Assembly: GCA_035192965.1 (NCBI GenBank)
Contig: CP136571.1
Coordinates: 1,074,501-1,138,500 of the forward strand
DNA: 64,000 nucleotides
Source: Fuscovulum sp.
Lineage (GTDB): Bacteria > Pseudomonadota > Alphaproteobacteria > Rhodobacterales > Rhodobacteraceae
Direction: 5' to 3'
Shown here: in pieces, positions 9,569 to 64,000 of the stretch
How positions within the stretch are numbered: the first letter of the stretch is position 1
How the letters are laid out: each line of letters starts with the position of its first letter
Position numbers and translations under genes: made by a program
The notes under the pieces: model-generated
Seen by the model: the letters and a program-made list of their open reading frames with translations, nothing else
What the model was told of the DNA's origin: nothing
The model's database searches: none

Positions 9569-10909
9569 ATGCCCGCCAGTCCGATGAATTCCCAGATCTA
9601 TGCGGGGCTTTTTGGTGACCCGGAAACGGAGCGCCTTTTCAGCGACAGCGCCGAACTGCGCGCCATGCTGCTGGTCGAGGGAGCGCTGGCCCGTGTTCAA
9701 GGCAATCTGGGTCTGATCCCCGCAGATGCGGCCGCCTTCATCGAGCGAGCCGCGCATGAAGTGCAGATCGACCCTGCCGCGCTTGCCGCAGACACGGCCC
9801 GCAACGGGGTGCCTGTGCCGGCGCTGCTTGGGGCGTTTCGCAAGGCGGCGACCGCGCCCGACCTGATGCAGTACCTGCATTGGGGGGCCACAAGTCAGGA
9901 TATCATGGACACCGCCCTTGCCTTGCGGTTGCGGCCCGTGCTGGCCCTGTGGGAGGCCCGGCTGGGTGCGTTGTTGCAGCAAATGGTCACCCTTGCCGAA
10001 GGCCATGCCACCCTTCCGATGGCCGCCCGGACTTATGGCCAGATCGCGACGCCGACCAGCTTTGGCGCTGTTGTTGCAAGCTGGGGCTGGCCATTGATCA
10101 CTGCACGCGACCGTCTGGTCGGCTTGCGCCCCGCAGTTCTGCAAGTATCCCTTTCGGGAGCGGCTGGCACATTGTCTGCCATGGGGCCGGAGGGCCCGGC
10201 GGTGCGGTCCGCATTGGCAAAGGTGCTGAACCTTGAAGACCCCGGTCACAGCTGGCACAGCGACCGCTCTGGTATCAGCCAACTCGCAGGCTTCGCCGCC
10301 ACGCTGGCCGCTTCCCTTGGCAAGATCGGAGAGGACCTGATCCTGCTAACCCAGTCCGGGTTGGCCGAAGTGACGCTGGGGCAGGGCGGTGCCTCATCGA
10401 CGATGCCGCAAAAGCAGAACCCTGTCGCCCCGTCGGCGCTTGTCGCGTTGGCGCGGCATGTCATCGGGCAGGCCACCATCTTGCAGGGGGCCGGGGTTCA
10501 CCGTCAGCAGCGGGACGGTGCGGCCTGGTTCACCGAATGGCTGACCCTGCCGCAAACCTGCATTGCTTTGGGGCGTATGCTCAGCTTGGCGCAAGACTGC
10601 CTGTCTCGGCTGGAACCCGACCCGATGGCAATCGCCGCACAGATGGGCACAAGCCACGGCAGCATTCACGCCGAGGCGCTGACCTTTGCCCTTGCCCGCC
10701 AGATACCCCGCCCTGATGCCGAACGGCAGGTCAAGTCCCTGCTGGCCGAGGCCGTTGCCACGGGCCAGCCCCTTGCGACCCTTGCCACCCGCGACCATCC
10801 CGCGCTGGACTGGTCCGCAATCATCGCAACCAGCCTTGGTCAGGCGCCAAACGAGGCGCTGTCTTTTGCCCAAGCGGTTTCCGGATCAGGGGCCCCACCC
10901 ACAAACTGA
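9569..10909 (+). CDS. pcaB: 3-carboxy-cis,cis-muconate cycloisomerase
   Basis: 446 residues, member of the fumarase/aspartase superfamily; converts 3-carboxy-cis,cis-muconate to 4-carboxymuconolactone. The superfamily signature GQGGASSTMPQKQNPVAP lies at about residues 271-288, and the HWGATSQDIMDT segment at about 105-116. The frame is open well upstream into the BKACE gene, but ATG 9569, 25 bases after the BKACE stop and preceded by a GAGAAA site, fits the family N-terminus (MNSQIYAGLFGDPE). Last gene of the pca operon. Confidence 0.93.
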   Translation: MPASPMNSQIYAGLFGDPETERLFSDSAELRAMLLVEGALARVQGNLGLIPADAAAFIERAAHEVQIDPAALAADTARNGVPVPALLGAFRKAATAPDLMQYLHWGATSQDIMDTALALRLRPVLALWEARLGALLQQMVTLAEGHATLPMAARTYGQIATPTSFGAVVASWGWPLITARDRLVGLRPAVLQVSLSGAAGTLSAMGPEGPAVRSALAKVLNLEDPGHSWHSDRSGISQLAGFAATLAASLGKIGEDLILLTQSGLAEVTLGQGGASSTMPQKQNPVAPSALVALARHVIGQATILQGAGVHRQQRDGAAWFTEWLTLPQTCIALGRMLSLAQDCLSRLEPDPMAIAAQMGTSHGSIHAEALTFALARQIPRPDAERQVKSLLAEAVATGQPLATLATRDHPALDWSAIIATSLGQAPNEALSFAQAVSGSGAPPTN

Positions 10910-11240
10910 CAGAAGTTTGCCATGTGGCGGATGCGAAACCGTCTCCGTTTGCCTTGAGCGAGGAGCCGGTCTGTGAGTGGAAGAAGGGATGGCTCGGTCG
11001 ACCGTGCCGTTGGGTATGGACCACATGCAATGATCTCTGGCAACGGCGCGCGCAGATACTTTCGGGAAACAGATAGCCCCACAAAAGATTTCTGCGTGTT
11101 CTGCCTTTGTGTTTGGCGCTTGAGTGTCGCGTCGCGCTGATTTTGGTTTTGCCCAGCCCTTCTTGTAACGATGCTGTTTCGGCAAGCGAAGTGCCGCAGG
11201 TCGGATCTGCAGACGCAGCCCATCGCCGAAGGGAACAGCC
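10910..11240. other. Intergenic gap without a recognised gene
   Basis: 331 bases between pcaB and the SGNH-like gene. Open frames here on the minus strand run antisense into both neighbours and show no family resemblance. No convincing hairpin terminator for the pca operon was found. The last part should hold the promoter of the 11241 gene; its ribosome site is CGAAGGGAAC. Confidence 0.4.
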
Positions 11241-12086
11241 ATGAAAAACCGGGTTGCGGCATTGGCCATCGCCGTGATGGGACTGTTCCTGCGCGGCGAG
11301 GCCATGGCCCAGACGCAGACATCGCCAGACATACTTGTTTTAGGCGACTCGCAGCTTTCTTTCGGAGCGGGTGAGGCCTTTGTTACGATCCTTGAGGACT
11401 TGAGGGGCGCGTGCGGACTTTCGCGCGACACGACTGTCGGCGTGATCGGTGTACGCTCCAGCAGTCTGCAGTCATGGACGTCAACGGGACGCTCGGCCAA
11501 AGGGGCAATCTGCGACATCGACCCGAAATGGAAGGTCAATGCCGGTGCCTACGGACTGCTTTCCCAAGGTGCCAACCCCTATGTCCAGATCGGGCAAGGT
11601 GAACGGTTCCAGTTCTGTCAAGACGGCCTTTCTCCCCTTCAGGCCGTGTTCAACGAGGGGTATTACCAACCAAAGCTCCTGATCATGTTCCTCATGGGCA
11701 ATGCCACGCGACGCTGGGCTGCCAGCGCCGAGGCTGCTTTGCAGGATGCGCGTTCTTTCATTGCCGATTTGCCTGCGGATCAGCCTTGCATCTTCATGAC
11801 GTCGGCCCCGACCTATGGCGAGAAGTCCGTCCGCCTGCGCCAAGTGGCACAGGCCAATATCGAGGCAGCTTTCGCTACAGCCGGTGGGCAGTGCAGCTTT
11901 GTCGCCGGGCTGACACCGGAAACAATCCGTGAAAACCTTGGCAATGCCGCGAACTTTCGTCGCTCGGCCACTGGCAGAGTGAAAGACCCCCTACACCCGA
12001 CCGAAAGAGCAGCGCACCGATTTATGTCTTTGCAGCGCGATGCGCTATGCGCGGCGCTTTCTGCCCAGTTGGGACACGAGGAATGA
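11241..12086 (+). CDS. Secreted SGNH/GDSL-hydrolase-like protein
   Basis: 281 residues with a cleavable signal peptide (about 1-23, ending AMAQ). The mature protein starts with ILVLGDSQLSFG, an SGNH block I with candidate nucleophile Ser37, and has a block V-like DPLHPTERAAHRF with candidate Asp249 and His252. SGNH proteins are esterases, deacetylases or acyltransferases acting on lipids or glycans. An acyl-esterase role on periplasmic glucans is possible because OpgC and OpgH lie downstream, but this is only positional. Several cysteines fit a periplasmic location. It may not be cotranscribed with the next gene, since a small hairpin lies between. Confidence 0.7.
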   Translation: MKNRVAALAIAVMGLFLRGEAMAQTQTSPDILVLGDSQLSFGAGEAFVTILEDLRGACGLSRDTTVGVIGVRSSSLQSWTSTGRSAKGAICDIDPKWKVNAGAYGLLSQGANPYVQIGQGERFQFCQDGLSPLQAVFNEGYYQPKLLIMFLMGNATRRWAASAEAALQDARSFIADLPADQPCIFMTSAPTYGEKSVRLRQVAQANIEAAFATAGGQCSFVAGLTPETIRENLGNAANFRRSATGRVKDPLHPTERAAHRFMSLQRDALCAALSAQLGHEE

Positions 12087-29387: not shown

Positions 29388-29904
29388 GCCAAGCTCCGCA
29401 CAGGATAAATGGAGAGGTCCCGCTTCCGCACCAGCGACCGCTTTCAGGAAGGCCTGAATATGCGCGGCCAGCGCCGTGAACGTCCGCTTAGGGCCGAAAG
29501 CGCCTTGCCAGTCGCATAGGGCGCGATGCGGTCATGCGCTGCGTTTTGCGAACAAGTCGGCTACAAGGCGAACCGCACCGTTGCTTATGCCGACTGGCGC
29601 GGACGCTTCGTTGTTTGATGTAAACGTCGGAAATGGCTGATGGAGACGGGTTCGCGTAAGTCTGACACTCACCTCAATGAGTCTTCGCGACTTCAGCAGC
29701 TTAAACATTTTAAAGTTGACGGGTTTAATGATGGGTATATTTCAAAATTTTCCGAAAAATCGTTTATTTTCAATGGGGTTTGGCGGAGGGAGTTTGACAA
29801 ATATCGAACTCTCTCCCGTGCCGATGGTTGCGGCACGGGACCGCCGCGAAATGTTGCGCATCAACGGGGGACAGTGGCCCGGTGCTAGCCTGACAGACCG
29901 TCGT
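29388..29904. other. Non-coding or decayed stretch, partly AT-rich
   Basis: About 520 bases without a recognisable gene. The first part (to about 29620) is GC-rich with short frames resembling debris, one ending GRFVV-stop at 29617. The second part (29640-29780) is clearly AT-richer than anything nearby and contains two overlapping short frames (29640-29888, 29677-29916) without ribosome sites or family resemblance. The mixture suggests the left scar of the inserted defence island. Confidence 0.4.
29815..29839 (-). terminator. Hairpin downstream of the zinc-ribbon gene
   Basis: Perfect nine-base-pair stem CCCGTGCCG/CGGCACGGG with a seven-base loop, 66 bases beyond the stop of the leftward unit. 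No clear T-tract. Confidence 0.45.
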
Positions 29905-33999: not shown

Positions 34000-34009
34000 C
34001 ACTCCCCCT

Positions 34010-34059
34010 AACGCGACATGAAATATGTCACGATCATCGTCGCGTCAAGTAACGCGACA
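34010..34059 (-). promoter_or_regulatory. Promoter and operator of the MerR-VWA unit
   Basis: Two direct repeats TAACGCGACA at 34010-34019 and 34050-34059, 40 bases apart. The distal one also forms an inverted repeat GTCGCG-N8-CGCGAC (34039-34058). Between them, on the minus strand, are -35 TTGACG (34048-34043) and a -10 TATTTC after 17 bases. The repeats flank the promoter, which suggests autoregulation. Confidence 0.5.
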
Positions 34060-34374
34060 AGAATTTTGACACGTTGATTGCGGATCAGCTAGACTCCATC
34101 GATCCACAACTGAAAGCTCGACGGGCGCTTAGCGGAACAATGATGTAGCTTTGCTCGCTCTGCACGGCACTTGGAGCCCAACTTCGGTCACAAAATGATG
34201 GAAGCGTCTGCTGCGCCCTATCCACTTGCTTGGTAATGCAATTCACCGCGCATGGCTCTGATCATAGTGTGAGTTTGCGATTGATTGCGCTCCCTAGCTC
34301 AAGTAGCCTCAGGACAGGTCCAAAAAATGGGCGCGCATATTTTTCGTACGCATCCAACCAGGTAAGGGGACGCA
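34060..34374. other. Divergent intergenic region between the two defence-island units
   Basis: 315 bases without a credible gene. It must contain the promoter of the WYL-DUF499 operon. The stretch 34320-34365 is AT-rich (ccaaaaaatgggcgcgcatatttttcg, in part). The ribosome site AAGGGGAC precedes the TTG start of the regulator. I could not assign the WYL-protein operator. Confidence 0.4.
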
Positions 34375-35244
34375 TTGGAAAGCGGCAGCGCGGAACTTCG
34401 CTGGGGCGTCGAGCAGCGGCTCGAGTTCATCGAGTTCCGTCTGTTCTGGGAGGGGCATGTGAACCGCAGCGATGTGATGGAGCAGTTCGGGCTGTCGGTG
34501 AACCAGGCGTCATCCGACCTGAATCGCTACATCGGCTTTGCTCCGGAGAACATGGTCTACGATAAGAGTGCGCGGACCTATGTCCGAGGGCCTAGGTTCA
34601 AGGCGCAGTTTATGCAGCCCGACGCAGGCCGATATCTTGCGCAGCTTCGGTCCTTGGCCGACGGACTACTGGATCCAGAGGATTCATGGATCGCTGTCCA
34701 TCCCACTTTCGATGCGGCTCCAACCCCAGTTCGGGGCGTGAACCCCATGACGCTTCGCTCGATTGTCGGTGCTATTCATCGGGCAGAGGCAATCGAAGTG
34801 CAGTATCAATCGCTGTCGCGCCCAGAACCGATCTGGCGCTGGATTGCTCCGCATGCCATCGCGTTCGATGGCTTCCGCTGGCACACTCGTGCTTTCTGCC
34901 TGCTGGACAACTGTTTCAAGGATTTCCTTCTCTCAAGAATCCTCGACACTCGCGGCATTCAACCATCCCCATGCGGCAGCGCCGCGGACGAGGATTGGGC
35001 CGAGCAGGTCGATCTGGTAATCGGACCTCATCCGGATCTATCCGATACGCAACGCAGGGTTGTTGAATTGGATTACGGGATGAGTGGCGGCAGTGCCAAG
35101 ATAACTGTACGGCGGGCGCTCCTGTATTACGCGCTGCGACGTCTCGGCCTCGATTCTCCGCCGGGCTCGCGAAAGCCGGAAGAACAACAAATTGTATTGC
35201 TGGCATCCAGCGCGGAAGTGCGCCGCGCTGAAACTGAAATGTGA
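34375..35244 (+). CDS. WYL-domain transcriptional regulator (BrxR/CapW-like)
   Basis: 289 residues from TTG 34375 with AAGGGGAC upstream. N-terminal winged helix (LEFIEFRLFWEGHVNRSDVMEQFGLSVNQASSDLNRY, split), a WYL domain in the middle (IEVQYQSLSRPEPIWRWIAPHAIAFDGFRWHTRAFC), and a C-terminal extension. Regulators with this layout (BrxR, CapW) repress BREX, CBASS and other defence operons and are thought to sense a nucleotide or nucleic-acid signal. It stands first in the rightward operon, 12 bases before the ATPase gene. Confidence 0.85.
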   Translation: MESGSAELRWGVEQRLEFIEFRLFWEGHVNRSDVMEQFGLSVNQASSDLNRYIGFAPENMVYDKSARTYVRGPRFKAQFMQPDAGRYLAQLRSLADGLLDPEDSWIAVHPTFDAAPTPVRGVNPMTLRSIVGAIHRAEAIEVQYQSLSRPEPIWRWIAPHAIAFDGFRWHTRAFCLLDNCFKDFLLSRILDTRGIQPSPCGSAADEDWAEQVDLVIGPHPDLSDTQRRVVELDYGMSGGSAKITVRRALLYYALRRLGLDSPPGSRKPEEQQIVLLASSAEVRRAETEM

Positions 35245-35256
35245 TGGGGGTGCTCT

Positions 35257-38001
35257 ATGCTGGGGCTTAAACTACGCGGAGAATTTCTTGGCCGCCGCTT
35301 GCAGGGCACTGCGATTGAACTGTCCAACGACAGCAACACAGGCGCTACCCAAGTACCAGCCCAGAGCTTCTTGGAGATCACTTACCCCACCCTCGACCTT
35401 CTAAAGGGAATTGAAGCTGTGGGCCCGGCGCAGGGACGCCCCGTCGTTGTGATCGGGGAGCGCGGCCTGGGTAAATCACACTTGATGGCCACCCTATACC
35501 ACGCTGTGCACGATCCAGCTTCAACAAGGGCGTGGCTGAATAACTGGTCGGTCACCCTCAGCGATCCGAAGATCAGTTCGATACCACTCCGCGACGGTAT
35601 GCTTGTGCTCGGTGAAAGCCTCCACCGTCACCGGTACAAATTCCTGTGGGACCTGCTCTTTGAGCGCCACCCTCATGGCACCTACATCAAGGGAAAGTGG
35701 GAAGGAATGGGGTCCGCCAAGACCGACATCCCTTCAGATCAGCTTATCCTAGAGCTGTTGCGCCACACTCCGACCATGCTGCTGCTGGACGAGTTTCAAA
35801 CTTGGTACGACAGCCTGACCAACACAAAGCAGTACCCTTGGAAGAACTGGGCGTTCAATTTCATCCAGATCCTTTCTGAAATTGCGAAGGAGCATCCAGA
35901 GCTTCTTGTGCTTGTCGTGTCCGTGCGAAACGGCACAAGCGATGCTTACCAGCAGATCCATCGGGTAAACCCGGTTCAGGTTGACTTTCGGGCGGGTGGC
36001 AGTCCTGACAGGATCCAAATCGACCGCCGCAGAATGCTGCTGCATCGCTTGTTTGAGAACAGGCTTCAGATCACAGCGTCTGCGATCGAGAGCATCGTGG
36101 CGACACACGTCTCGGAGTTCATAAGGCTTACGAACGTTCCTGCCGCTGAGCAGGAGCGGAAGCAGCGCGATTTTCTCGATGCTTGGCCATTCGCGCCGCA
36201 TCTCCTGCAACTTCTCGAAGACCAAGTATTGGTTGCAACTGATGCGCAGGAGACGCGAGACCTCATCCGCATCCTCGCAAACCTGTTCAAGAGCCGGGGG
36301 GATACGACACCGATCCTGACCTCTGCGGACTTCAAGCTCGACGATGATACCACCGGTATTGGTGCATTGCTTGACTCGGTCGCGAACCAGCAGCACCGGT
36401 CCCTTCGGGACAAAGCGCTGCGAAATTTGACCTCTGTGGTCGAAGCCGTACCGGACCATGCATCAAAAGCGCCCCACCTTCAGGAAATTGTCGGTGCTTT
36501 GTGGCTGCGGTCGATCGCCGTAGGCAACTTGGCTGGCGCTGACCCTGCGATCCTGCAGGCCGACATCACGAAAACCAAGAAGGTGGACGACAACGCATTC
36601 CAGGTTGAGCTGGCAACGATCATCGAAAACAGCTTCAACATACACCAGGACGGAACTCGGCTGGTTTTCAAAGAGGAAGAGAACCCGCAAGCCAAAGTGA
36701 TGGCATCCGCCCGCAACGACAGGCTGTTCACTGACGGGGCAGATCTCGCCCAGCTCGCGAAGGAGGTTCGCTACGTCATCAGCGGAACCGAAGAGGTAGC
36801 GCGAAACTTCCGAGTGATCGCTTTGCCGCGCAGCTGGCAAACCGATCCTTGGACTGGTCTCGAGGAAAGTGAACACCCAGATCAATGGGACGACAGACTG
36901 CCTATCCTGGTTCTTCCCGAAGAACCCGACCGCTTGAATGAACGTCTTGGGCGTTGGGTCAAAGACCACATGCAAAAGCGCAGGAACACCGTGCGCTTCT
37001 TGCTGCCGCGCTCGGGCTTTACGAACGCATTCTACGACCGTGACCTGATCATCCTTGCGCGCGCAGAAATGAAAGCACGGGAGTGGGGCAACCAGAACGC
37101 TGAATATCGTAAACTTCACACGAAGTATCAAAGCGAACTGCGGGACATCTTGCGGAAGCGCTTCGACCGCTTTGCTGTGATGTACCGCTGGAACTTCTCT
37201 GATCCTTCAAAATGTGAGTTTCACGTTGAAGCCTTGCGAGAGCAAGGTTCAAAGATCCCCGACGCCATCGAGAATGCGTTGACGAACGATTTGTTCGTGC
37301 CGGAGGACTTCCAGGACCTTGTCCTTGATGCAGCGAACAGTAACAGCTCGGTTGGCAAGCTCTTGAAGGAGCTTCAGGAACCGCGACCCTCTGGCCAAGA
37401 CTGCATCCCATGGCTTGGCGAAACTGCCATGAAGGAACGAATTGTCCGTCTGTGTGCCCGTGGAAAGATCGCGATTAACTTGCGGAGCATGGAGTACCTG
37501 CAGGCTCTCGCTGGGGAAGATGAAGATGCGGCTTGGAAACGTCTGAGACCAAAGTTGGCCTTCACTGGTCGTCAGCTGGATGAAGTTTTCCTTCTGCCCC
37601 CGTCTGCGGTTCCGTCGACTGGCGGCTCGACACCCGTGACACCTCCGACAACAGAACCTCCCACTGGTGGTCTCTTCGGCGGCGCCCCTCCGGCACCGAC
37701 CTCTCCGGTTGGCGGGAACAATGGAGACCCGCCAGTCGCACCCGCCCCAGGTCCAACGTCCACACCGGGCGGGATCTTTGGAGGGGGGGCAGGAAGCGGT
37801 CGTACACCTTTCGCCAGCTCAGCAACCTCCCCTTTGAATCTTATCGGCAAAGTTGAGAGCTGGGGCATTGGGCCAGCAACGCCCGTCAAGGAAGTGACGA
37901 TCAAGGTAACCGCAGCTACCGGCGCTCAGCTCAAGGAACTGCTCAAGAAGCTTCCTGACGGCATGACGTTCGAGCTTTCCTTGGACAAGGAGGGCAGCTG
38001 A
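35257..38001 (+). CDS. DUF499-type AAA+ ATPase of the anti-phage system (BrxC/PglY-like)
   Basis: 914 residues. P-loop GERGLGKSH at 67-75 and Walker B TMLLLDEFQTW with Asp178-Glu179. The N-terminal region (LRGEFLGRRLQGTAIELSND) and overall length match the DUF499 ATPases found next to DUF1156 methylases in bacterial and archaeal defence islands. They are functional counterparts of BrxC/PglY. A Pro/Gly/Thr-rich linker at about 785-855 separates a small C-terminal domain (EVTIKVTAATGAQLKELLKKL). The stop overlaps the PglZ start (TGATG), so translation is coupled. Confidence 0.85.
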   Translation: MLGLKLRGEFLGRRLQGTAIELSNDSNTGATQVPAQSFLEITYPTLDLLKGIEAVGPAQGRPVVVIGERGLGKSHLMATLYHAVHDPASTRAWLNNWSVTLSDPKISSIPLRDGMLVLGESLHRHRYKFLWDLLFERHPHGTYIKGKWEGMGSAKTDIPSDQLILELLRHTPTMLLLDEFQTWYDSLTNTKQYPWKNWAFNFIQILSEIAKEHPELLVLVVSVRNGTSDAYQQIHRVNPVQVDFRAGGSPDRIQIDRRRMLLHRLFENRLQITASAIESIVATHVSEFIRLTNVPAAEQERKQRDFLDAWPFAPHLLQLLEDQVLVATDAQETRDLIRILANLFKSRGDTTPILTSADFKLDDDTTGIGALLDSVANQQHRSLRDKALRNLTSVVEAVPDHASKAPHLQEIVGALWLRSIAVGNLAGADPAILQADITKTKKVDDNAFQVELATIIENSFNIHQDGTRLVFKEEENPQAKVMASARNDRLFTDGADLAQLAKEVRYVISGTEEVARNFRVIALPRSWQTDPWTGLEESEHPDQWDDRLPILVLPEEPDRLNERLGRWVKDHMQKRRNTVRFLLPRSGFTNAFYDRDLIILARAEMKAREWGNQNAEYRKLHTKYQSELRDILRKRFDRFAVMYRWNFSDPSKCEFHVEALREQGSKIPDAIENALTNDLFVPEDFQDLVLDAANSNSSVGKLLKELQEPRPSGQDCIPWLGETAMKERIVRLCARGKIAINLRSMEYLQALAGEDEDAAWKRLRPKLAFTGRQLDEVFLLPPSAVPSTGGSTPVTPPTTEPPTGGLFGGAPPAPTSPVGGNNGDPPVAPAPGPTSTPGGIFGGGAGSGRTPFASSATSPLNLIGKVESWGIGPATPVKEVTIKVTAATGAQLKELLKKLPDGMTFELSLDKEGS

Positions 38002-38990
38002 TGGCTTTGGATGCACAACAGTTGCTAGATCTGACCAAGTCTTCACCCGAAGAGGCTTGGCAGACCGTCATTGAACGCGCCTTGGAAGTCTGTGGCAGTC
38101 CGCTGAATGTCGCGAGTGCATCTGCAGAGGTCACTAGGCGCGACCGAGCTATCGGTGAGCTGGACCATTTCCTTTCGTCGGTGGCTTGGGATTTGTGGCG
38201 GGCCTTCGGGGATGTCGTCCCGCGGAACGCGGACAAGGTCAGCGAATGGTGGGGAAAACCATACAGCGCCAAAGCGGTGCTCGTCTTAGACGGCCTCAGC
38301 TTGCGGGAACTGCCTTGGCTGATCGAGGAAGCGAAGGCGCGCGGCTTCGCGCTGCATACCACCACGGCTTACGCGGCCGAGATACCCAGCGAAACAAACG
38401 CCTTTGCCAAGGCGCTCGGGTTGAACAGCCGCAGTCAGCTGCAGAACAACGGCGGTGGCCTGCTTCACCGCCTCGCGCCTGCGAGAACTGAGTGCATCGA
38501 CATGCCTTGGAAAGACTGTGCCGGGCTTGTCGATGCTTCGCCGAACTGGCTGTTCTGGCATCAATGGCCTGACACGAAACTGCACGATGGCGCTGGCGCG
38601 GGTCAGGGGCTGGACGTTCTCACGCGGGACATCGCGGCGCAGCTGACCAGCGATGATTTCTGGTTGTTCGTGGAGCGGCTGGCGACCGGTCGCCGCCTGG
38701 TGATCACCTCCGACCATGGCTACGCCGCGACCGGCTTGTTCTTCGACGCGGCCGACGAACAGGGCACCTTCCTGAAGAACGCCCTTAAGAGCGGCCGTCT
38801 CGCAGCTGGCGATCACGACCCGGGCCCGTTCGTTCCCCCGGTCGCGCTGCAGGCCGACAGTCCGCACGGAAAGCACCTACTCGCCCTCGGCCGCTGGAAA
38901 TGGAAGAGCCAGGGCGGCTATCCCACCCTCGCGCATGGCGGCCTGTCCCTGCTCGAGATGCTCTGCCCGTTTGTTGAATTGACGAAGTAA
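38001..38990 (+). CDS. pglZ: Short PglZ-domain protein
   Basis: 329 residues, about half or less of usual PglZ proteins. Alkaline-phosphatase-superfamily core: metal aspartate in AVLVLDGLSLRELPW, SDHGYAAT with its Asp-His pair, and the C-terminal HGGLSLLEMLCPFV, the PglZ hallmark. PglZ is essential in BREX and Pgl systems, but its biochemical role is unsettled. It may act as a nuclease, phosphatase or partner that controls PglX. The start overlaps the DUF499 stop, and the methylase starts 12 bases after its stop. Confidence 0.85.
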   Translation: MALDAQQLLDLTKSSPEEAWQTVIERALEVCGSPLNVASASAEVTRRDRAIGELDHFLSSVAWDLWRAFGDVVPRNADKVSEWWGKPYSAKAVLVLDGLSLRELPWLIEEAKARGFALHTTTAYAAEIPSETNAFAKALGLNSRSQLQNNGGGLLHRLAPARTECIDMPWKDCAGLVDASPNWLFWHQWPDTKLHDGAGAGQGLDVLTRDIAAQLTSDDFWLFVERLATGRRLVITSDHGYAATGLFFDAADEQGTFLKNALKSGRLAAGDHDPGPFVPPVALQADSPHGKHLLALGRWKWKSQGGYPTLAHGGLSLLEMLCPFVELTK

Positions 38991-39002
38991 GGAATTACGC
39001 CC

Positions 39003-42000
39003 ATGGCGACCAAGAAAGAACAGATTGCCCAAGAGGTCGCGCGTGCGGTCGGCGCCGGCAAAGCCGTCGCCATGGAGACCGTTGATTTCAGCGACCCGAA
39101 CCGGCCCAAGACCTGCCTTGAGGTGGATTTTCCGATCTTGCCCGTGAACCAGGTTGCCGTGATCGAGGGCAACGCGGGCAAGCCGATCTATCAGATGTCG
39201 AAATGGTGGGCGCGGCGGCGGTCCAGCGTGTTCCGCTCGATGCTCATCGCGGCCGCGACCAAGGCGCCCGAGGATCCGTCCCATGCGGCGAAGCTGGTTT
39301 GGGACAACTACTACGCCAACCACCAGAAGAAAGGTGCCTTCAAGCACCTGAAGGTGGCTGACATCTTCATGGGTGGCGGTACGACGCTGGTCGAAGGCTC
39401 TCGTCTTGGAATGCAGATGTCGGGCAATGACCTGAACCCGGTCGCCTGGTTCGTGGTGAAGCAGGAACTGGCAGATGTTGATCTGGACGAGGTGAAGCGC
39501 CTGCTGGCGGACATCGAGGCTGAGGTGAAGCCACAGATCATGCCGTTCTACTACTGCGACGGCCCGAACGGCGAGAAAGGCACCTGGACGCACAAACTCT
39601 CGGGCAAGGTGATGGGCGCGGATTTTGACCCGCTCTCGTTGAAGCCAGAGGAGCGGAAAGACTACAGCTACGAAGGGCCCGAGATCATCTACACCTTCTG
39701 GGCAAAGCACGGCCCTTGCCAGGTGACGGGCTGCGGTCACCGTACCCCGATCATGACTGATCCAGTCATGGCCGTGAAAACACTGACCGTGAAACATTGG
39801 GCGCATGAATGTCGGTCATGCAGCGGGCAGTTTGACATCGAGGATGCCGAAGCGCGCATGGCCCCAGAGGTTCCGCTCTATGTGGCACCCGATGAAAAGC
39901 CCTATTCGATCCTCGATCCGAAAGGCAGGGTGATCTGCCCCCATTGCGGCCATACCGAAATGGTGAAGCTCGACAAGGGCACGAACAAGAAGGTCGACCT
40001 GACGCTCCTGGTCCATCCTGAATGGCTGGCTGGCAGCCCAAAAACGGCCCCCGACGGCACCGAGTTCGGTGGCGCGCCTCAGGACGACGCGGCATCAACC
40101 CGCGCTTGGAATTCCGAGAGGGCAAGCCACATTCGACTGTTGGAAGTACGCGGCAAGCTCCCGGACACTGCCACCTGTCCCGAGACCAAGGTAACCTTCC
40201 CGACCGGCAAGGAAGGTGGCACTGTCCCGAAGCGGTCGACCTTCACATGTGCATCCTGCGGTTCACAACAGGATGTAATGAACTCGACCCGCGACTCCAA
40301 GAAAGGTGGACAGGTTGCCGGCTACGGCATCCAAGGGCTCGCGCCAAAGCGCGGAGACACTGGCGCGCCCTATCGCGGTCGTTTCTTTGCGCCTTTCAAC
40401 GAGCAGCTGGCCGACCAGTACAGCACTGCAATCGAAGAGTGGGAGCTGCGTAAGGACGGCGATCTAGCGGACTATTGGCCCCGCTCCGAGGTTCCCTATG
40501 GCTTCATGACGGCCATCGCAAACAGCGATATTCGTACGAATTATGGGTTCACGCATTGGTGGACCATGTTCAATCCGCGGCAGCTTCTCGTGCTGTCTCA
40601 GATCCTCAAGTCCATCGTGGAAACCGGCGACTACAGCTGGGCAACGCGGGAGTATGTTCTTGGTGCGTTCCAGCAATACGTCCGCAACCAAAACATGTTT
40701 TGCTTCTGGGATATCAGCCGCGATTGCCTCGCTCCACACATGAGCAATAACAACTACCACCCGAAAGCGAACATCGTTGAGAATTGCGTTTTCAGCAATT
40801 TAGGTCGTGGAAACTGGATCTCCTGCGCTGAGACTATTGAAGCCGGAGAAGATTGGTCTGCTAGGCCGTGGGAGCCCGTTAGCGTAGACACACTCTCGGT
40901 GTCACACCCCGGCCTAGCAGCCGAAATCTCAGGGAAGAGTGAGAAAGTCTTTCCCGGAGATCCCGTTCGCGAAACGGAAATTTTCCAAGGCTCTTCGACG
41001 GATCTGAGCCAGTTCCGCGACCAGTCCATAGACTTGGTGATCACCGATCCGCCATTCGGTGGCCTTCTTCACTATTCAGAGCTCGCTGACTTCTTTTACG
41101 TTTGGCTCCGCCTTCCTCTGAAAGCGAAATACCCAGAGTATTTTGGACCGGAATACACCCCCAAATCCATGGAGGCTGTGTCCAACAAGGCACGGGAACC
41201 AGAAGATCCGGACGGGTTCTACCAGCGTCTCCTGACCGGCTGTTGGCGTGAAGCCCATCGCGTACTGAAGCCGGGCGGCGTTTTGGCGTTCACGTTCCAT
41301 CACAGCGAAGATGCACCGTGGGTCTCGGTGCTTGAGTCGCTCTTTGACGCTGGTTTCTATCTCGAGGCGACCTATCCAATACGCTCGGACGAAACCAAGG
41401 GTGAAGGCGAGTTCGGCTCCAAGACCATCGAGTACGACATCATCCATGTCTGTCGAAAGCGCACAGACGAACCTAAGCCAGTCAGCTGGGGCCGCATGCG
41501 CCGCGAGGTGCTGGCTGATGTCCGCCAACTACAGGGCATGTTGGAAAATCATGCCCGCGCAGGTCTGCCAGCCGCTGACCTTCAGGTCATTCGCCGTGGC
41601 AAGGCGCTCGAATACTTCTCGCGCCACTATGGCAAGGTCTATGTCGACGAGGGTCGTCCAATTTTGGTCAAAGACGCACTGGTCGGCATCAACCAGCTGA
41701 TCGACGAGGACGCAAACAAGACCGCCGAACCGCCGCCGGTGATCGCCGAGCCGATCTCGCGCCAGTTCCTGCGCATCTTCGACAGCAAGACCGAACTGGC
41801 CCGTGACCAAATCCAGAAGCTGCTCCGCGGCTCGGGCATCGCCCCGGATGAATTCGAAACGCGGGGCTGGTGCCACGAGGACAAGAAGGTCTTCCACCTG
41901 GTTGACCCGCTGGCCTTCGCCCGCGATTGGCAAGGCAAGCATCGGCGGAAACTGACGGCCGACCTCGACCAGGCCCTCGTGATGGTGGGGGCTTGCTACG

Positions 42001-42209
42001 ACGGCAGCGGCATCAACGCGTCAGACACGCTGAAGAACGAGAACTTCAAGCCGCACCCTGCGCTGAAAAGCTTGCTCGAATGGCTCAGCAAGCGGGGCCA
42101 GACTCAAACGATGCGCAATGCGGCATCGCGGGCGCTGACGATCTACAACAACTGGGCCGCAAGCAACAAAGACCAGGTGCGCCAGCTGTCGCTGTTCCAG
42201 GAGGACTGA
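39003..42209 (+). CDS. DUF1156-type adenine-specific DNA methyltransferase
   Basis: 1068 residues. The N-terminal DUF1156 region has YQMSKWWARRRSSVFRSM; the SAM-binding motif is DIFMGGGTTLVEG (about 120-132); zinc-ribbon-like cysteine pairs occur at about 240-425 (CQVTGC, CRSC, CPHC, CASC); the catalytic motif is TDPPFGGLLHY, with DPPF at 682-685. The order fits N6-adenine methylases of BREX-like and related islands, marking host DNA as self. The C-terminal 250 residues (from about 850) may be a specificity or coupling domain. Base composition within the gene is mosaic, with the segment around 40740-41450 much AT-richer than both ends. The stop is two bases before the next gene. Confidence 0.88.
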   Translation: MATKKEQIAQEVARAVGAGKAVAMETVDFSDPNRPKTCLEVDFPILPVNQVAVIEGNAGKPIYQMSKWWARRRSSVFRSMLIAAATKAPEDPSHAAKLVWDNYYANHQKKGAFKHLKVADIFMGGGTTLVEGSRLGMQMSGNDLNPVAWFVVKQELADVDLDEVKRLLADIEAEVKPQIMPFYYCDGPNGEKGTWTHKLSGKVMGADFDPLSLKPEERKDYSYEGPEIIYTFWAKHGPCQVTGCGHRTPIMTDPVMAVKTLTVKHWAHECRSCSGQFDIEDAEARMAPEVPLYVAPDEKPYSILDPKGRVICPHCGHTEMVKLDKGTNKKVDLTLLVHPEWLAGSPKTAPDGTEFGGAPQDDAASTRAWNSERASHIRLLEVRGKLPDTATCPETKVTFPTGKEGGTVPKRSTFTCASCGSQQDVMNSTRDSKKGGQVAGYGIQGLAPKRGDTGAPYRGRFFAPFNEQLADQYSTAIEEWELRKDGDLADYWPRSEVPYGFMTAIANSDIRTNYGFTHWWTMFNPRQLLVLSQILKSIVETGDYSWATREYVLGAFQQYVRNQNMFCFWDISRDCLAPHMSNNNYHPKANIVENCVFSNLGRGNWISCAETIEAGEDWSARPWEPVSVDTLSVSHPGLAAEISGKSEKVFPGDPVRETEIFQGSSTDLSQFRDQSIDLVITDPPFGGLLHYSELADFFYVWLRLPLKAKYPEYFGPEYTPKSMEAVSNKAREPEDPDGFYQRLLTGCWREAHRVLKPGGVLAFTFHHSEDAPWVSVLESLFDAGFYLEATYPIRSDETKGEGEFGSKTIEYDIIHVCRKRTDEPKPVSWGRMRREVLADVRQLQGMLENHARAGLPAADLQVIRRGKALEYFSRHYGKVYVDEGRPILVKDALVGINQLIDEDANKTAEPPPVIAEPISRQFLRIFDSKTELARDQIQKLLRGSGIAPDEFETRGWCHEDKKVFHLVDPLAFARDWQGKHRRKLTADLDQALVMVGACYDGSGINASDTLKNENFKPHPALKSLLEWLSKRGQTQTMRNAASRALTIYNNWAASNKDQVRQLSLFQED

Positions 42210-42211
42210 AC

Positions 42212-42712
42212 ATGAAGCAGCTTCTCGACAGCGTCTGGCAGCGGCGTGGCGTCAGCTGGATCTGGGAGAACGACGCCTTCTCGTCTATCGCCAAAGCTGG
42301 CGAGGTGTTCAGCTTGCGAGAGATGATCCGCGCTTCGAGTAACTGGCCGGATGACTTGCCCAGCAACGCCAGCAACACCTTGGTCGTTGCAGGTCTTGAC
42401 GCCTGTCTCGACCTGATGACGCCAGCCGATGCGGAGGCGTGGTTGGGCAACGAGCTGAAATCGACGATCTTGTCTTTCCAGGACGCATATTCCGGCGAAG
42501 CTGCGCTCGTTTTTTGGCTACCTAATGGCCATCGACGTATTCATGTTGACCTTGCCACGGATGCTGTCCGCTGGCGCTGTGCCGCACCTTATTCCGATGA
42601 ACAGATCGAGTTTGGTCGGGTGCTATGGGGGGAAGCTCGCCAATATCCGCAGGAGATCCTCCTCGCGCACGGTGGCAAGCCTGCCGGGCTCTTCCACCTC
42701 CGGATCACTTAA
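42212..42712 (+). CDS. Unknown 166-residue protein of the anti-phage operon
   Basis: Starts at ATG 42212 with GGAGGA upstream, inside the methylase's last codons. Upstream in-frame extension overlaps the methylase and is rejected. No family recognised: it begins MKQLLDSVWQRRGVSWIWEND, is acidic and tryptophan-rich, and has alternating beta/alpha character without cysteines in a motif or membrane segments. It fills the place where DUF3780-type or BrxF-type accessory proteins occur in related systems but shows no clear likeness to either. The stop overlaps the helicase ATG (TAATG), so it is surely a component of the operon. Confidence 0.75.
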   Translation: MKQLLDSVWQRRGVSWIWENDAFSSIAKAGEVFSLREMIRASSNWPDDLPSNASNTLVVAGLDACLDLMTPADAEAWLGNELKSTILSFQDAYSGEAALVFWLPNGHRRIHVDLATDAVRWRCAAPYSDEQIEFGRVLWGEARQYPQEILLAHGGKPAGLFHLRIT

Positions 42713-45483
42713 TGATGGCGACCGAGACCACCTACAGCCCGGGTGAGCGGATCACCCACAGTGACCACGGCGCAGGTGTCGTGCTTGAGACGCCGCGTGA
42801 AGGCTATCTTCGAGCGTTCTTCAGCGGCGGCGAGCGCCGAGTACCGCTTGGCAGCATCAAGAAGGAACGATCAAGGACCGAGCGCATCCTCAGTTCCGTT
42901 GAGGGGTCTGCTGAAAGGGCAAGGACTGTCTGGCTGTCTTACGAAGCCCATGCCCTACCCATAATGGAGAGTGCATCAGCGCTGACATCTGCGCGGATCG
43001 ACTTGCTGCCCCATCAGGTTGTTCTGACCCACAGGATCGCGACAGCGTCGCCCCGCCGGTTCCTGATCGCTGATGAGGTTGGGCTGGGAAAGACCATTGA
43101 GACGGCATTGATCTTGCGAGAGCTCGTCAATCGAGGTGAGCTAAACCGTGCCTTAATGGTCGTTCCGGCTGGCCTCGTGAACAACTGGCATCGAGAATTG
43201 AACGAAGTATTCAATCTCGATTTCGAGGTTTTTGGGTCAGAGGGCGACATTACTGACCGGAAGACCAATGCTTTTGCGAAACACGACCGGCTGATCGCAA
43301 GCATCGACACCCTCAAGCGTCCAGCACGCATCAAGCGCCTGTTGGATGCGCCACGCTGGGACCTGGTGGTCTTCGACGAAGCGCATCACGTCACCGCACA
43401 CCGCATCGGCGGCAAGGTGCGGAAAACTGAGAACTACAAGCTTGGCGAAGCGTTGAAAGGCCATGCACGCGACCTGCTTCTGCTTTCAGCAACCCCGCAT
43501 CAGGGAAATCACTTCACGTTCTGGATGCTGATCCAACTGCTGAACCCAACACTCTTCAGCAGCCCCGAAGACATGCTAGAGAACCGGCATCGTCTTAACA
43601 CGGTGATGTTCCGCCGGACAAAAGCTGACGCGTGCAAGCCTGATGGCGAGCCGCTGTTTGCCCGCCGTTGGGTACATACGGAATCATTCCTGATGAGCGA
43701 GGAAGAACGGGGCTTCTACGAAAAACTGCGTGAATACCTCGAGGACGGCTTTGACCTGGCTAAGCGCAAAGGCAATCAAGGACGCGCCCTCGGCTTCCTC
43801 ATGGCAATCTTCCAGAAAATTGCAGCATCCAGTTTCGCGGCAGTTCGACGCACTTTGAAACGCCGGATGCTCATGTTGACCTTGCATGAAGCGCTGCTGA
43901 GAGATCGCGAACTCGACATCGAGGGACGCGAGCGCCTTTACGATGAAGCCCGAGAGTTGATCCATATTGAATGGGGTCTGGGCAGAGATCCAATTTCGAG
44001 AAGCGAAGTCGACAGGGTGATGGCAGACCTCAAACATCGCCTAGCCAAAAAGCTTGACGAGGACGAGCTGGAGTTGGCATCTGATCCTTACGGCAGCGAA
44101 TTCGTGTCTTCGCATCTGGAAGATCTGGCGTCCGCAGCGATTGACCTGCACCTTCCCGAAGAGCGTCTTAGAATTGCGGACTTGCTCAATAGTTTTCCAG
44201 CCCAGCGTGAAACCAAGGCTCAAAAGCTAATCGACGGCTTGGGTGTGCTCTGGCGACAAAACCCGAATGAAAAGATTGTGATCTTTGCCACGTATCTTGG
44301 CACTGTAGATCTGATCGCAAAGGAAATTGAAGCGGTCTATCCAGGTCAAGGGGTGGCTGTGTTGCGAGGAGGCGACCACGGCGCAAAGGTAGCAGCGGAG
44401 CGCCGATTCAAGCAAAAGGATGGGCCGAGGGTCCTCGTTTGCACAGCAGCCGGCCGAGAAGGGATAAATCTTCAGTTTGCGCGCATCCTGTTCAATTTCG
44501 ACCTGCCCTGGAATCCGATGGATATGGAGCAAAGAATTGGACGCATCCATCGTTACGGTCAAAACCACACGGCACAAGTGTACAATCTTGTTCTTTCTGA
44601 TACGATTGAAGGCAGGATTTTCCTGTTGCTAGACGACAAGCTCACGGAGATTGCCCGCACCCTTGGCAAAGTCGACGAGCAAGGGAATGTCGCCGAAGAT
44701 CTCCGGTCACAGATTCTTGGACAGCTTTCGGAGCGCCTAAACTATGATCGTCTGTATCAAGAAGCGCTTGGCGATCCAGAACTGAAGCGGACAGCGGTTG
44801 AACTTGAGGCAGCGCTATCGAATGCCCGTGAGGCACGCGAAGTCGTGTTTGACCTTTTCCAAGACCTCGATGGTTTCAGCTTGGATGACTATAAGCCATT
44901 CTCGGATGTTTCTTCCGGTATGGGGCGTCTGGTTGAGTTCCTGTCCTCAGCAGTAAGCGATCAGAATTCGCGAGTGGTCAAGATTGATGATCGAACTGTC
45001 GATCTAATCAGTTCCGAAGGCAGCCTGAGAAAAAGGTTCACACTCGACCGAGATACTGCCACTGAAAATGAAAAATGCGATCTAATGGGACTGGATCACC
45101 CATTGCTCCAGGAAGAGCTGGGTCGATGGCGCAGCGTTGCTCCCGAGTCCTTGGGCGTCGCCCTTGAAGGCAGCGGTTATGGGCCAGCAGTCCTTACTAT
45201 CTGGATGATCGAAACGTCAAATAGCGCTGGGGAGCACAGGTCCACAATCCAAGCAATCGCCGTGAATCTTGAAGGCAACAGATTACCGGCAGCTGAACGT
45301 CAATTAGAAATTGTACTCCGATCAAATCCAACTCGCGCAATGCTTTCGGCAGAAAAGCGGATTGAGTTGTTTGCTCAACATGTGGAACCGACTTTACAGC
45401 GGGAGCTGAAGCACAAAGGTGCCGCTGCGGGTGAAGGTAGCTATTCGGCTGAGTTGATTGGGTACATCGAGCTCGTTTCATAG
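42712..45483 (+). CDS. SNF2-family helicase (DrmD-like)
   Basis: 923 residues from ATG 42712 in a TAATG overlap. Superfamily 2 SNF2 ATPase: an N-terminal KOW/SH3-like region (GERITHSDHGAGVVLETPREG), motif I DEVGLGKTIE at 121-130, DEAHH at 222-226, motif III LLLSATPHQGN, and in the second lobe VCTAAGREGINLQFA and QRIGRIHRYGQ. The architecture matches the DrmD helicase of class 1 DISARM and helicases of DUF1156-linked islands. It should translocate on or remodel phage DNA. Last gene of the rightward operon; 48 bases separate it from the prophage lysis genes on the other strand. Confidence 0.87.
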   Translation: MMATETTYSPGERITHSDHGAGVVLETPREGYLRAFFSGGERRVPLGSIKKERSRTERILSSVEGSAERARTVWLSYEAHALPIMESASALTSARIDLLPHQVVLTHRIATASPRRFLIADEVGLGKTIETALILRELVNRGELNRALMVVPAGLVNNWHRELNEVFNLDFEVFGSEGDITDRKTNAFAKHDRLIASIDTLKRPARIKRLLDAPRWDLVVFDEAHHVTAHRIGGKVRKTENYKLGEALKGHARDLLLLSATPHQGNHFTFWMLIQLLNPTLFSSPEDMLENRHRLNTVMFRRTKADACKPDGEPLFARRWVHTESFLMSEEERGFYEKLREYLEDGFDLAKRKGNQGRALGFLMAIFQKIAASSFAAVRRTLKRRMLMLTLHEALLRDRELDIEGRERLYDEARELIHIEWGLGRDPISRSEVDRVMADLKHRLAKKLDEDELELASDPYGSEFVSSHLEDLASAAIDLHLPEERLRIADLLNSFPAQRETKAQKLIDGLGVLWRQNPNEKIVIFATYLGTVDLIAKEIEAVYPGQGVAVLRGGDHGAKVAAERRFKQKDGPRVLVCTAAGREGINLQFARILFNFDLPWNPMDMEQRIGRIHRYGQNHTAQVYNLVLSDTIEGRIFLLLDDKLTEIARTLGKVDEQGNVAEDLRSQILGQLSERLNYDRLYQEALGDPELKRTAVELEAALSNAREAREVVFDLFQDLDGFSLDDYKPFSDVSSGMGRLVEFLSSAVSDQNSRVVKIDDRTVDLISSEGSLRKRFTLDRDTATENEKCDLMGLDHPLLQEELGRWRSVAPESLGVALEGSGYGPAVLTIWMIETSNSAGEHRSTIQAIAVNLEGNRLPAAERQLEIVLRSNPTRAMLSAEKRIELFAQHVEPTLQRELKHKGAAAGEGSYSAELIGYIELVS

Positions 45484-45531
45484 CGCTGTATGCAAAGTGT
45501 TCGGCAATGTTTACCCACCGGGCTTGCAGGA

Positions 45532-45780
45532 TTAGTTCTGACACACCCGCGCTTGGTCTCGCAAAACCGCATAGTCACCAAGCATGCGGGCGATGACGGC
45601 GCCTTCTGGCAACGCCTCGACTTCGTTGGCCGCGCGCGCCTGCTCGGCGCCGGTGTACTCGACCACGGGCGGACAGGGCGATTGGGTGTCAGAACCGCCC
45701 ATCGTGCAGCCGGTCAGCAAGTGCATCGCGATCAGGGGGGCGGCGAGCCGCGGCTTCGAGCATCTCTCGCTGTATGACAT
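45532..45780 (-). CDS. Rz1-like outer-membrane spanin lipoprotein
   Basis: 82 residues from ATG 45780, with a lipoprotein signal (LIAMHLLTGC, lipobox LTGC) and a short mature part rich in Ala/Glu. It starts inside and out of frame with the i-spanin gene, overlapping it by about 90 bases, the classical Rz/Rz1 arrangement. Together they fuse inner and outer membranes during lysis. An upstream start at 45837 would add 19 codons before the signal and is unlikely. Last gene of the prophage on this side. Confidence 0.72.
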   Translation of the reverse strand: MSYSERCSKPRLAAPLIAMHLLTGCTMGGSDTQSPCPPVVEYTGAEQARAANEVEALPEGAVIARMLGDYAVLRDQARVCQN

Positions 45781-63028: not shown

Positions 63029-64000
63029 TCAGAACCATCCCCCGCGTCGGCCAAGCCAGTCTGACTGCCGTTTTCCCTGGATTGCGGATTGCGGCCGGTT
63101 GACCCGCCCCGCGCCATCCATTTCCATTGGACCAGCCCCGATCTGATCCTCGAGATCGCGCCATTTCTCGTCGGGCCAGCGGTCCGCGCCCGCGATCCAG
63201 GCGGCGGCGCGGGCATAGACCCGGCAGTCCAGCGCCTCGTTGCGCTCGCGCAGCTTCTGCCATTCGAGCTTCGCGAAGCCGCGCTTGGTGCGGACCGTCA
63301 CCAGTTGCTCGGCCACGACCTGCTTCAGCCATTCGCTTTCCACCCATGTCGGCAGGTGGATCGTCCCGGGTGGAAAAGCCGCGCCCTCGGCGCGCTCCTC
63401 GGCTGTGGGTCGGTCGAGCCGAAGGAAGCGGTAGGTCTCGGCCTTGAAGGTCGACACCGCCACGGTCCAGAGCCGCGCGCCGCGCCGGAGGCGTTTGCCA
63501 CCCTCGGTTGCGTCGACAAAGGTCGGGCCTGACACCGGGCTCGAGCGGTTGAACCCCTCGACGCCTTTCACCGGTGACACCTGCGCAAAGCCTTGCGCGC
63601 GCGACCAGGAATAGACCGCGGGGGCCTCGTATCCCGTGTCGATGGCCAGACGCGCGATGCGCAGATGAGCGCCGCGTTCATGCGGCCAGGACCGCTCCAG
63701 CAGCGCCGTCAGTTCCGACCACGCATCATGTCGGTCAGGCCCGCCTTCGATGACGACGTGATCGACAAGCCAGCTTTCGAGCCCACGACCCCAGGCCCAA
63801 ACATCGACCTCGATCCGATCCTTCTGCACGTCGGCCCCGGCGGTTAGGAACAGCCCACCTGCTGGTACCGTGCCCGGTTTCCACGCCTCGCGCCGGTCGT
63901 AGAGTCGCTGCCAGTCTGGCGCTTCGCCGGTCTCGACCCATGTCTCGCCCAGGATCGTGTTGCGGAACGCCTTGATCGCCTCGTCCGACCCTTGGGCCGC
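63029..64000 (-). CDS. Terminase large subunit, GpA type (5' end outside window)
   Basis: Open to the window edge; 323 codons of the C-terminal part are present. It contains the end of the ATPase domain and the nuclease domain, with TAGADVQKDRIEVDVWAWG holding the first nuclease aspartate, and GLFLTAG before it. GpA-family terminases translocate and cut phage DNA at cos sites. The frame of the last 170 bases up to 64000 continues without stop (NTILGETWVETGEAPDW). Confidence 0.88.
   Translation of the reverse strand, partial: AAQGSDEAIKAFRNTILGETWVETGEAPDWQRLYDRREAWKPGTVPAGGLFLTAGADVQKDRIEVDVWAWGRGLESWLVDHVVIEGGPDRHDAWSELTALLERSWPHERGAHLRIARLAIDTGYEAPAVYSWSRAQGFAQVSPVKGVEGFNRSSPVSGPTFVDATEGGKRLRRGARLWTVAVSTFKAETYRFLRLDRPTAEERAEGAAFPPGTIHLPTWVESEWLKQVVAEQLVTVRTKRGFAKLEWQKLRERNEALDCRVYARAAAWIAGADRWPDEKWRDLEDQIGAGPMEMDGAGRVNRPQSAIQGKRQSDWLGRRGGWF

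Follow-up and report, generated by a model that had tools for sequence, protein, structure and literature searches.

The stretch of DNA considered here (the window) comprises 64,000 nucleotides of a Fuscovulum sp. genome (assembly GCA_035192965.1, contig CP136571.1, positions 1,074,501 to 1,138,500), and at positions 34375-45483 it holds an operon of six genes, all on the + strand, which we interpret as a defence system related to bacteriophage exclusion (BREX). In order, these encode a WYL-domain transcriptional regulator of the CapW/BrxR family (34375..35244; 289 aa, TTG start), a DUF499 AAA+ ATPase (35257..38001; 914 aa, Walker A GERGLGKS at residue 67), a standalone PglZ that is a candidate phosphodiesterase/nuclease of the alkaline-phosphatase fold (38001..38990; 329 aa), a putative DUF1156/PglXI-type adenine methyltransferase with a large recognition insert and two cysteine clusters (39003..42209; 1068 aa), a 166-aa protein with a P-loop-like predicted fold and no Walker A (42212..42712), and a SNF2-family helicase of the BrxHII/HmaA/RapA type without a fused nuclease (42712..45483; 923 aa). 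The genes are tightly packed: 12 bp separate the regulator from the ATPase and PglZ from the methylase, 2 bp separate the methylase from the 166-aa gene, and 1-bp overlaps join the ATPase to PglZ and the 166-aa gene to the helicase. No extra gene lies within the operon, which is as such an insert-free copy, and its GC content is 57.5%, as against 63.1% for the remainder of the window. An earlier note on this DNA had proposed six coupled genes at these positions, and all six frames were found, with two starts corrected. The longer TTG frame 41927-42712, taken as an unknown protein, was replaced by 42212-42712, and the helicase most likely begins at 42712, where a TAATG overlaps the preceding stop, rather than at the mechanical open reading frame (ORF) start of 42625; the first 40-residue block of the helicase is weakly conserved (0.21).

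Our reading of this operon, to which we would assign a probability of about 0.75, is that it constitutes a Type-3 BREX-related (BR) restriction-modification-like anti-phage system. The Type-3 BR subtype was introduced by Rakesh & Krishnan (Nucleic Acids Research (NAR), January 2026, PMC12839542), where its description is by comparative genomics only, and the definition given there comprises a DUF499 ATPase, an N6-methylase, a nuclease-free BrxHII-like helicase, a standalone active PglZ and usually a small protein of the inactive STAND (iSTAND) kind; the same account counts standalone active PglZ in 569 taxa and iSTAND in 466 of them (82%). Judged by its gene families and their order, the operon is a real, intact and mobile member of this subtype. 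Relatives were gathered by a profile scan of genome contigs with a five-sequence PglZ alignment, and 80 of the 218 found were kept. All five core genes, from the ATPase to the helicase, are present in 70 of the 80, the other ten being contigs that end before the helicase, and in every one of the 70 complete relatives the order of ATPase, PglZ, methylase, 166-aa protein and helicase is maintained on a single strand, which argues for a coupling beyond chance. A chance ORF overlap as the origin of the 166-aa gene is likewise ruled out by its retention in all 70. A homologue of the WYL regulator was found upstream in only 14 of the 80 relatives (three of these weak, at 29-36% identity), and the regulator is therefore regarded as optional.

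The assignment of the 329-aa protein to PglZ, which the earlier note had made, is not trivial, because the Pfam PglZ model misses it; that model has no match elsewhere in the genome either, and the PADLOC PglZ model matches the protein with an E value of 0.0024. An AlphaFold2 model based on 54 sequences (pLDDT, predicted local distance difference test, of 84.4, with two active-site loops below 50) was compared with solved structures, among which PorX is the closest (Z 19.3, root-mean-square deviation 3.7 over 289 aligned residues; Foldseek 1e-8), followed by the BREX PglZ structures 9zn5 (Z 15.1) and 9nv3 (Z 11.6). To the extent that a predicted model permits, this fold comparison confirms the protein as PglZ. 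The presumed metal-site residues D97, T132, D191, H195, D238, H239 and H312 are invariant in all 57 sequences compared. A PDB sequence search with the PglZ profile, in which PorX was the best reached, aligns D238, H239 and H312 with PorX weakly (E 0.74), and D97, T132, D191 and H195 are presumed by us, from the PorX motif pattern, to correspond to the metal ligands and the catalytic threonine of PorX, for which T271 is named as the catalytic residue in the titles of structure entries. The operon appears in this manner to possess a standalone PglZ with an intact predicted metal site, as Type-3 BR requires.

The earlier description of the methylase as a DUF1156 protein is upheld in part: the Pfam DUF1156 model scores 16.7 bits, below its cut-off of 24, but the HmaB (2.2e-34), PglXI (6.6e-26) and DUF1156_MTase models all match, as does Pfam N6_N4_Mtase (5.6e-8), and N6 activity would be expected from the family. 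A DPPF motif at residue 682 is kept in 70 of 73 relatives. Within the two cysteine clusters (239/244/270/273 and 312/315/416/419), C239, C244, C270, C273, C312, C315 and C416 are conserved in 70 of 70 aligned rows, and C419 in 87%. The methylase also carries the most variable part of the operon, a recognition region at residues about 250-755 (39750..41267, + strand), within which the conserved DPPF motif lies. Between the window and the copy in Cypionkella aquatica (L012), residues 250-755 are 56% identical, whereas the backbone is 95% and the methylase flanks are 97% identical; likewise, copies from Brevundimonas (L015) and Aliihoeflea (L016) share 98% of the backbone and 96% of the flanks, but only 49% of the recognition region. 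When the 57 operons left after length filtering, that of the window among them, were compared pairwise over nine blocks, 32 of the 1596 pairs had a backbone identity of at least 0.93, and the recognition block was the lowest of the nine in 29 of these close pairs, falling below 0.70 in 20; the same was found in 8 of 11 clusters. Furthermore, the nearest neighbour by backbone differs from the nearest by recognition region in 43 of the 57 operons. Because the recognition region diverges so sharply between close relatives, specificity probably changes through its exchange, and divergence concentrated in this way is as expected for the specificity part of a restriction-type system. A pure one-part swap is nonetheless too simple a description, as the identity of the 166-aa protein is as low as 0.46 for one or more close pairs and 84% between the window and Cypionkella, and part of the recognition-region variation may reflect fast divergence instead of exchange. 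The term 'recombination' is absent from the main text of PMC12839542.

The 166-aa protein has no match in Pfam and PADLOC family searches, and a Walker A motif is absent from it in 70 of 70 relatives. Its AlphaFold2 model is of high predicted quality (pLDDT 91.6), and Foldseek returned nothing at a threshold of 0.001, the best match having E 0.33 and most being RadA/Rad51 and AAA proteins, while the best match by VIA was Rad51-like (Z 4.7); P-loop proteins lead both fold lists, albeit weakly. The model is consistent with the protein being the iSTAND protein of Type-3 BR, and by extension it may have a BrxB/BrxF-like role. The earlier statement that the operon lacks a counterpart of BrxB or BrxF has accordingly become doubtful, with the 166-aa protein occupying the iSTAND position though its fold matches are weak; the statement agrees with the searches insofar as no BrxF occurs among the PADLOC matches listed. 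BrxB (PF08747) has no match in the whole genome.

As the earlier note had held, the ATPase, PglZ, methylase and SNF2 genes are accompanied by a regulator of the CapW/BrxR type. The WYL protein (Pfam WYL 6.2e-10) matches the S. maltophilia CapW structure 7tb6 (8.6e-65, residues 3-283) and BrxR 7t8k (1.3e-41), and by these alignments it is a wHTH-WYL regulator of the CapW/BrxR family, homologous over its full length to the solved proteins. No CapW operator is claimed, because the inverted and direct repeats upstream mostly adjoin a divergent MerR-family gene; two 29-nt direct repeats beside it (34009-34078) are 79% alike and palindrome-like. The ATPase is recognized by Pfam DUF499 at 28.7 bits (cut-off 23; residues 156-342) and by HmaC at 2.1e-4, DUF6079 is absent among its Pfam matches at E 0.1, and the Walker A motif is kept in 74 of 76 relatives. 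The lowest-conserved block of this protein (0.46) is a Gly/Pro/Ser-rich linker ahead of a conserved C-terminal part, at about residues 790-850 (about 37620-37800 in the window). The helicase bears SNF2-rel_dom (2.3e-22) and Helicase_C (1e-17) domains and no nuclease family in a Pfam search at E 0.1, and its DEAH motif is kept in 57 of 60 relatives; the denominators of these motif counts (76 and 60 here, and 73 for DPPF) reflect some mis-set ORF starts in the relatives, with helicase lengths, for example, of 2 and 14 aa. Among the PADLOC matches listed for the helicase, BrxHI/BrxHII (8.7e-99) and HmaA (9.9e-95) come ahead of DrmD (2e-76), and the DrmD-like designation given to it earlier is replaced by these.

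Many relatives carry additional genes between the core genes. Counting as inserts only intergenic intervals within the core that exceed 350 bp, we found them in 27 of the 70 complete relatives (e.g. L025, L062, L036 and L080) and none in the other 43 or in the window. The sites are PglZ/methylase (20), 166-aa/helicase (7), methylase/166-aa (6) and ATPase/PglZ (1), and the contents that could be identified lie on the operon strand and are specific to their slot: SIR2-HerA (5) and IetAS (4) occur only between PglZ and the methylase, Schlafen with a ParA-like gene (3) and HEPN (1) only between the methylase and the 166-aa gene, and an OLD ATPase with DUF4276 (PADLOC HEC-01; 7) only between the 166-aa gene and the helicase. 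An incomplete locus (L087) has GmrSD in its first slot. The apparent insert of L069, which stands outside the 70, was discarded, as it arises artificially from a broken ATPase frame. Several inserts have no Pfam match; among them, PglZ/methylase inserts at L051:11000-11923, L060:10675-11424 and L081:11002-11949 encode proteins of 249-315 aa, and we regard these genes as candidates for uncharacterized effectors. That defence modules insert into such loci is already known in principle, since PMC12839542 describes BREX and BR loci that contain embedded nucleases, HEPN, Schlafen and OLD modules; its main text makes no mention of SIR2, subtilase or IetAS.

The operon resides in an element of about 58.7 kb that adjoins the 3' end of a tRNA-Ser(gct) gene and runs from window position 29781 past the end of the window at 64000 (G000:C1 about 1104281-1163020). 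In a genome of the same species (G358) the corresponding site is empty, the window sequence running to 29788 and then passing to L106:4521, the tRNA-Ser 3' end; since G358 joins both flanks directly, the window genome carries some 58.7 kb at tRNA-Ser. An 8-base word, read by eye, is common to both ends of the element, and no common word of at least 10 bases was found. The element contains phage tail, head, portal and terminase genes, a primase, a large serine recombinase, a block of MerR and VIT/VWA genes, and the operon itself, which on these comparisons is cargo in a prophage-like element. The MerR, VIT/VWA and phage genes that flank the operon are not nucleases, and a standalone nuclease beside the core is thus not seen. 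The operon is bracketed by two breaks in homology: that of the MerR/VIT block to a congener (G304, 91%) stops at 34064, just before the operon, and that to other prophages of the genus begins just past the helicase, at 45523-45546 in five compared slots and 45523-45554 overall. At the same phage end, the G304 prophage (L135:3142-12705, G304:C11) carries genes for DUF499, DUF7680, an HmaB-type methylase and a PLD-type helicase, a set resembling Type-2 BR except that DUF7680 takes the place expected for DUF3780; the G304 MerR/VIT block and prophage lie on different contigs, and their adjacency is not shown. A related prophage end in G306 (L139:27-9239, G306:C11) is followed by DruE-, DpdE- and DrmMI-like genes (Dpd/Druantia/DISARM-like; DISARM, defence island system associated with restriction-modification). 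Speaking against a slot reserved purely for defence, G314 has transporters at the corresponding position, and in a second prophage of the window genome RepB, recombinase and Fic genes are found further inward. The prophage is also matched by two other stretches of this genome, G000:C1 about 2897605-2919101 (with the RepB, recombinase and Fic genes beside it) and 1721890-1726602.

Outside this genome, the nearest copy is that of Cypionkella aquatica (97% PglZ identity), and no close PglZ was found in the 17 congeners searched, which gave one weak match of 27%. In a plasmid collection, 43 records match PglZ, 37 of them over at least 80% of its length; 28 of the 43 are from Klebsiella and 32 are predicted to be conjugative. 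The five-gene unit occurs in one order on plasmids of Ensifer, Aminobacter, Klebsiella and Tenderia, and on a haloarchaeal plasmid DUF499, PglZ (26% identical) and a methylase follow one another in unchanged order. Such sporadic, mobile carriage is typical of defence systems. On other plasmids, the helicase has neighbours that belong mostly to unrelated systems, including BREX-5 and DISARM. One Klebsiella plasmid with blaKPC-2 (L009, NZ_CP084988.1) carries the system with SIR2-HerA inserted and an annotated ATPase that is shortened (9884-12001). Five loci with PglZ 63-69% identical (L033, L038, L041, L046 and L066) lie on contigs binned as metagenome-assembled genomes of Akkermansiaceae, Acidobacteria, Eremiobacterota and Gemmatales, a placement that reflects either wide transfer or binning error.

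How such a system would operate may be proposed by analogy. In BREX, BrxB, BrxC and PglZ are described as forming a core complex (PMC13326643), and PglX as being both methylase and specificity factor (PMC11341690). Here, the methylase would use its internal recognition region to methylate adenines at a specific host site, and the DUF499 ATPase, the 166-aa protein and the SNF2 helicase would make up a DNA-scanning complex with the methylase as specificity factor, such that the ATPase, 166-aa protein and PglZ assemble on DNA while the methylase reads the site. At unmethylated sites the complex could license PglZ, as a metal-dependent phosphodiesterase, to nick or degrade invading DNA or to block its replication, and the CapW/BrxR-family protein most likely represses the operon until infection. 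A broader and more tentative proposal, which we hold at somewhat under even odds, is that the five genes are a minimal BREX platform in which an exchangeable recognition region alone sets the target and a bare PglZ is the effector, with fixed gaps serving as docking slots for second-line defences (perhaps set off by inhibition of the core) and the whole cassette moving between prophages and plasmids. The Cypionkella aquatica copy, which differs almost only in the recognition region, suits a direct test of specificity for both methylation and restriction; the compact, insert-free operon offers a clean case for whether a bare PglZ domain suffices as a BREX-like nuclease; and the position-specific inserts of the relatives are testable partners.

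Several observations weigh against the Type-3 BR reading as a functional account. The Type-1 BREX PglZ, for which nuclease activity is reported, has N- and C-terminal domains, and the 329-aa PglZ is without both. The 166-aa model bears no significant likeness to BrxB in Foldseek (chain 9zll_G at rank 18 with E 0.99, another BrxB chain at 1.6), and HHalign against seven BrxB-family frames found no match, several of these frames being mis-extracted and the alignment poor. The published definition also includes a C-terminal RRM in the ATPase and Tudor and inactive restriction endonuclease (REase) domains in the helicase; the assignment made here is by gene families and their order. It is worth considering that the effector is the SNF2 helicase or an unseen partner, and that PglZ is only a regulatory phosphodiesterase, as in the response regulator PorX, within a conventional restriction or abortive system. 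PorX is indeed a closer fold match than either BREX PglZ, and the added effectors of several relatives (SIR2-HerA, IetAS, GmrSD) could mean that the core does no DNA killing alone. We nevertheless consider this unlikely, as inserts are absent from the window operon and from 43 of the 70 complete relatives, the helicase has no nuclease family match, and the metal-site residues of PglZ are invariant.

Less likely still is that the operon is mainly an epigenetic or selfish-retention module of its element, evading host restriction or killing cells from which the element is lost, and serves phage defence only secondarily. Its residence in a prophage-like element and on plasmids, most of the matching records being predicted conjugative, would suit such a role, but the genes are those of a BREX-related defence system, known defence genes are found in related slots and inserts, and methylation alone needs no conserved block of ATPase, helicase and PglZ. 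The Type-3 BR reading is also preferred over a reduced Type-3 BREX that has lost BrxA, to which we would give very little weight: a PglXI-type methylase and a BrxHII-type helicase are held in common, but the ATPase is DUF499, while BrxC is assigned to DUF6079 and set apart from DUF499 by phylogeny in PMC12839542, PglZ is standalone, and the five-gene set is without a BrxA-like gene in 70 of 70 complete relatives.

The comparison with known systems follows from these assignments, and the earlier view that the operon is neither a numbered BREX nor DISARM holds. Class 1 DISARM shares an SNF2 helicase related to DrmD and was rejected, there being no DrmA, DrmB or DrmC among the six genes and the helicase matching BrxH and HmaA better. 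Type-3 BREX (BrxF, BrxC, PglXI, BrxHII, PglZ and BrxA) was rejected on its ATPase and because neither BrxA nor BrxF is matched by any of the six proteins among the PADLOC matches listed, BrxA not having been searched genome-wide; the 329-aa PglZ is a further difference. Type-2 BR (DUF499, DUF3780, DUF1156 and an HKD/PLD-helicase) shares the ATPase and methylase families, but no HKD/PLD nuclease is matched by Pfam in the window operon, nor is DUF3780, a family named in the earlier note, among the Pfam matches of the six proteins. Hma, or Type-1 BR (helicase, methylase and ATPase), has counterparts here to HmaA, HmaB and HmaC, but it has no PglZ or iSTAND, and its helicase is usually nuclease-fused (79% of taxa in the account of PMC12839542); it was rejected because PglZ and the 166-aa gene are integral in 70 of 70 relatives and the helicase is without a nuclease family. 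The earlier conclusion that this exact set fits no type is superseded, since the same five core families are named for Type-3 BR in PMC12839542; an already described subtype covers the core, and the upstream CapW/BrxR-type WYL gene is unlisted in the subtype's section. The window methylase has two cysteine clusters, in that paper a variant of a smaller subset, and the 166-aa protein is likened to iSTAND by position, its fold matches being weak. With Type-3 BR the operon shares the DUF499 ATPase, a zinc-finger recognition insert in the methylase, a BrxHII-like nuclease-free helicase, a standalone PglZ with a conserved metal site, and a separate small gene at the iSTAND position.

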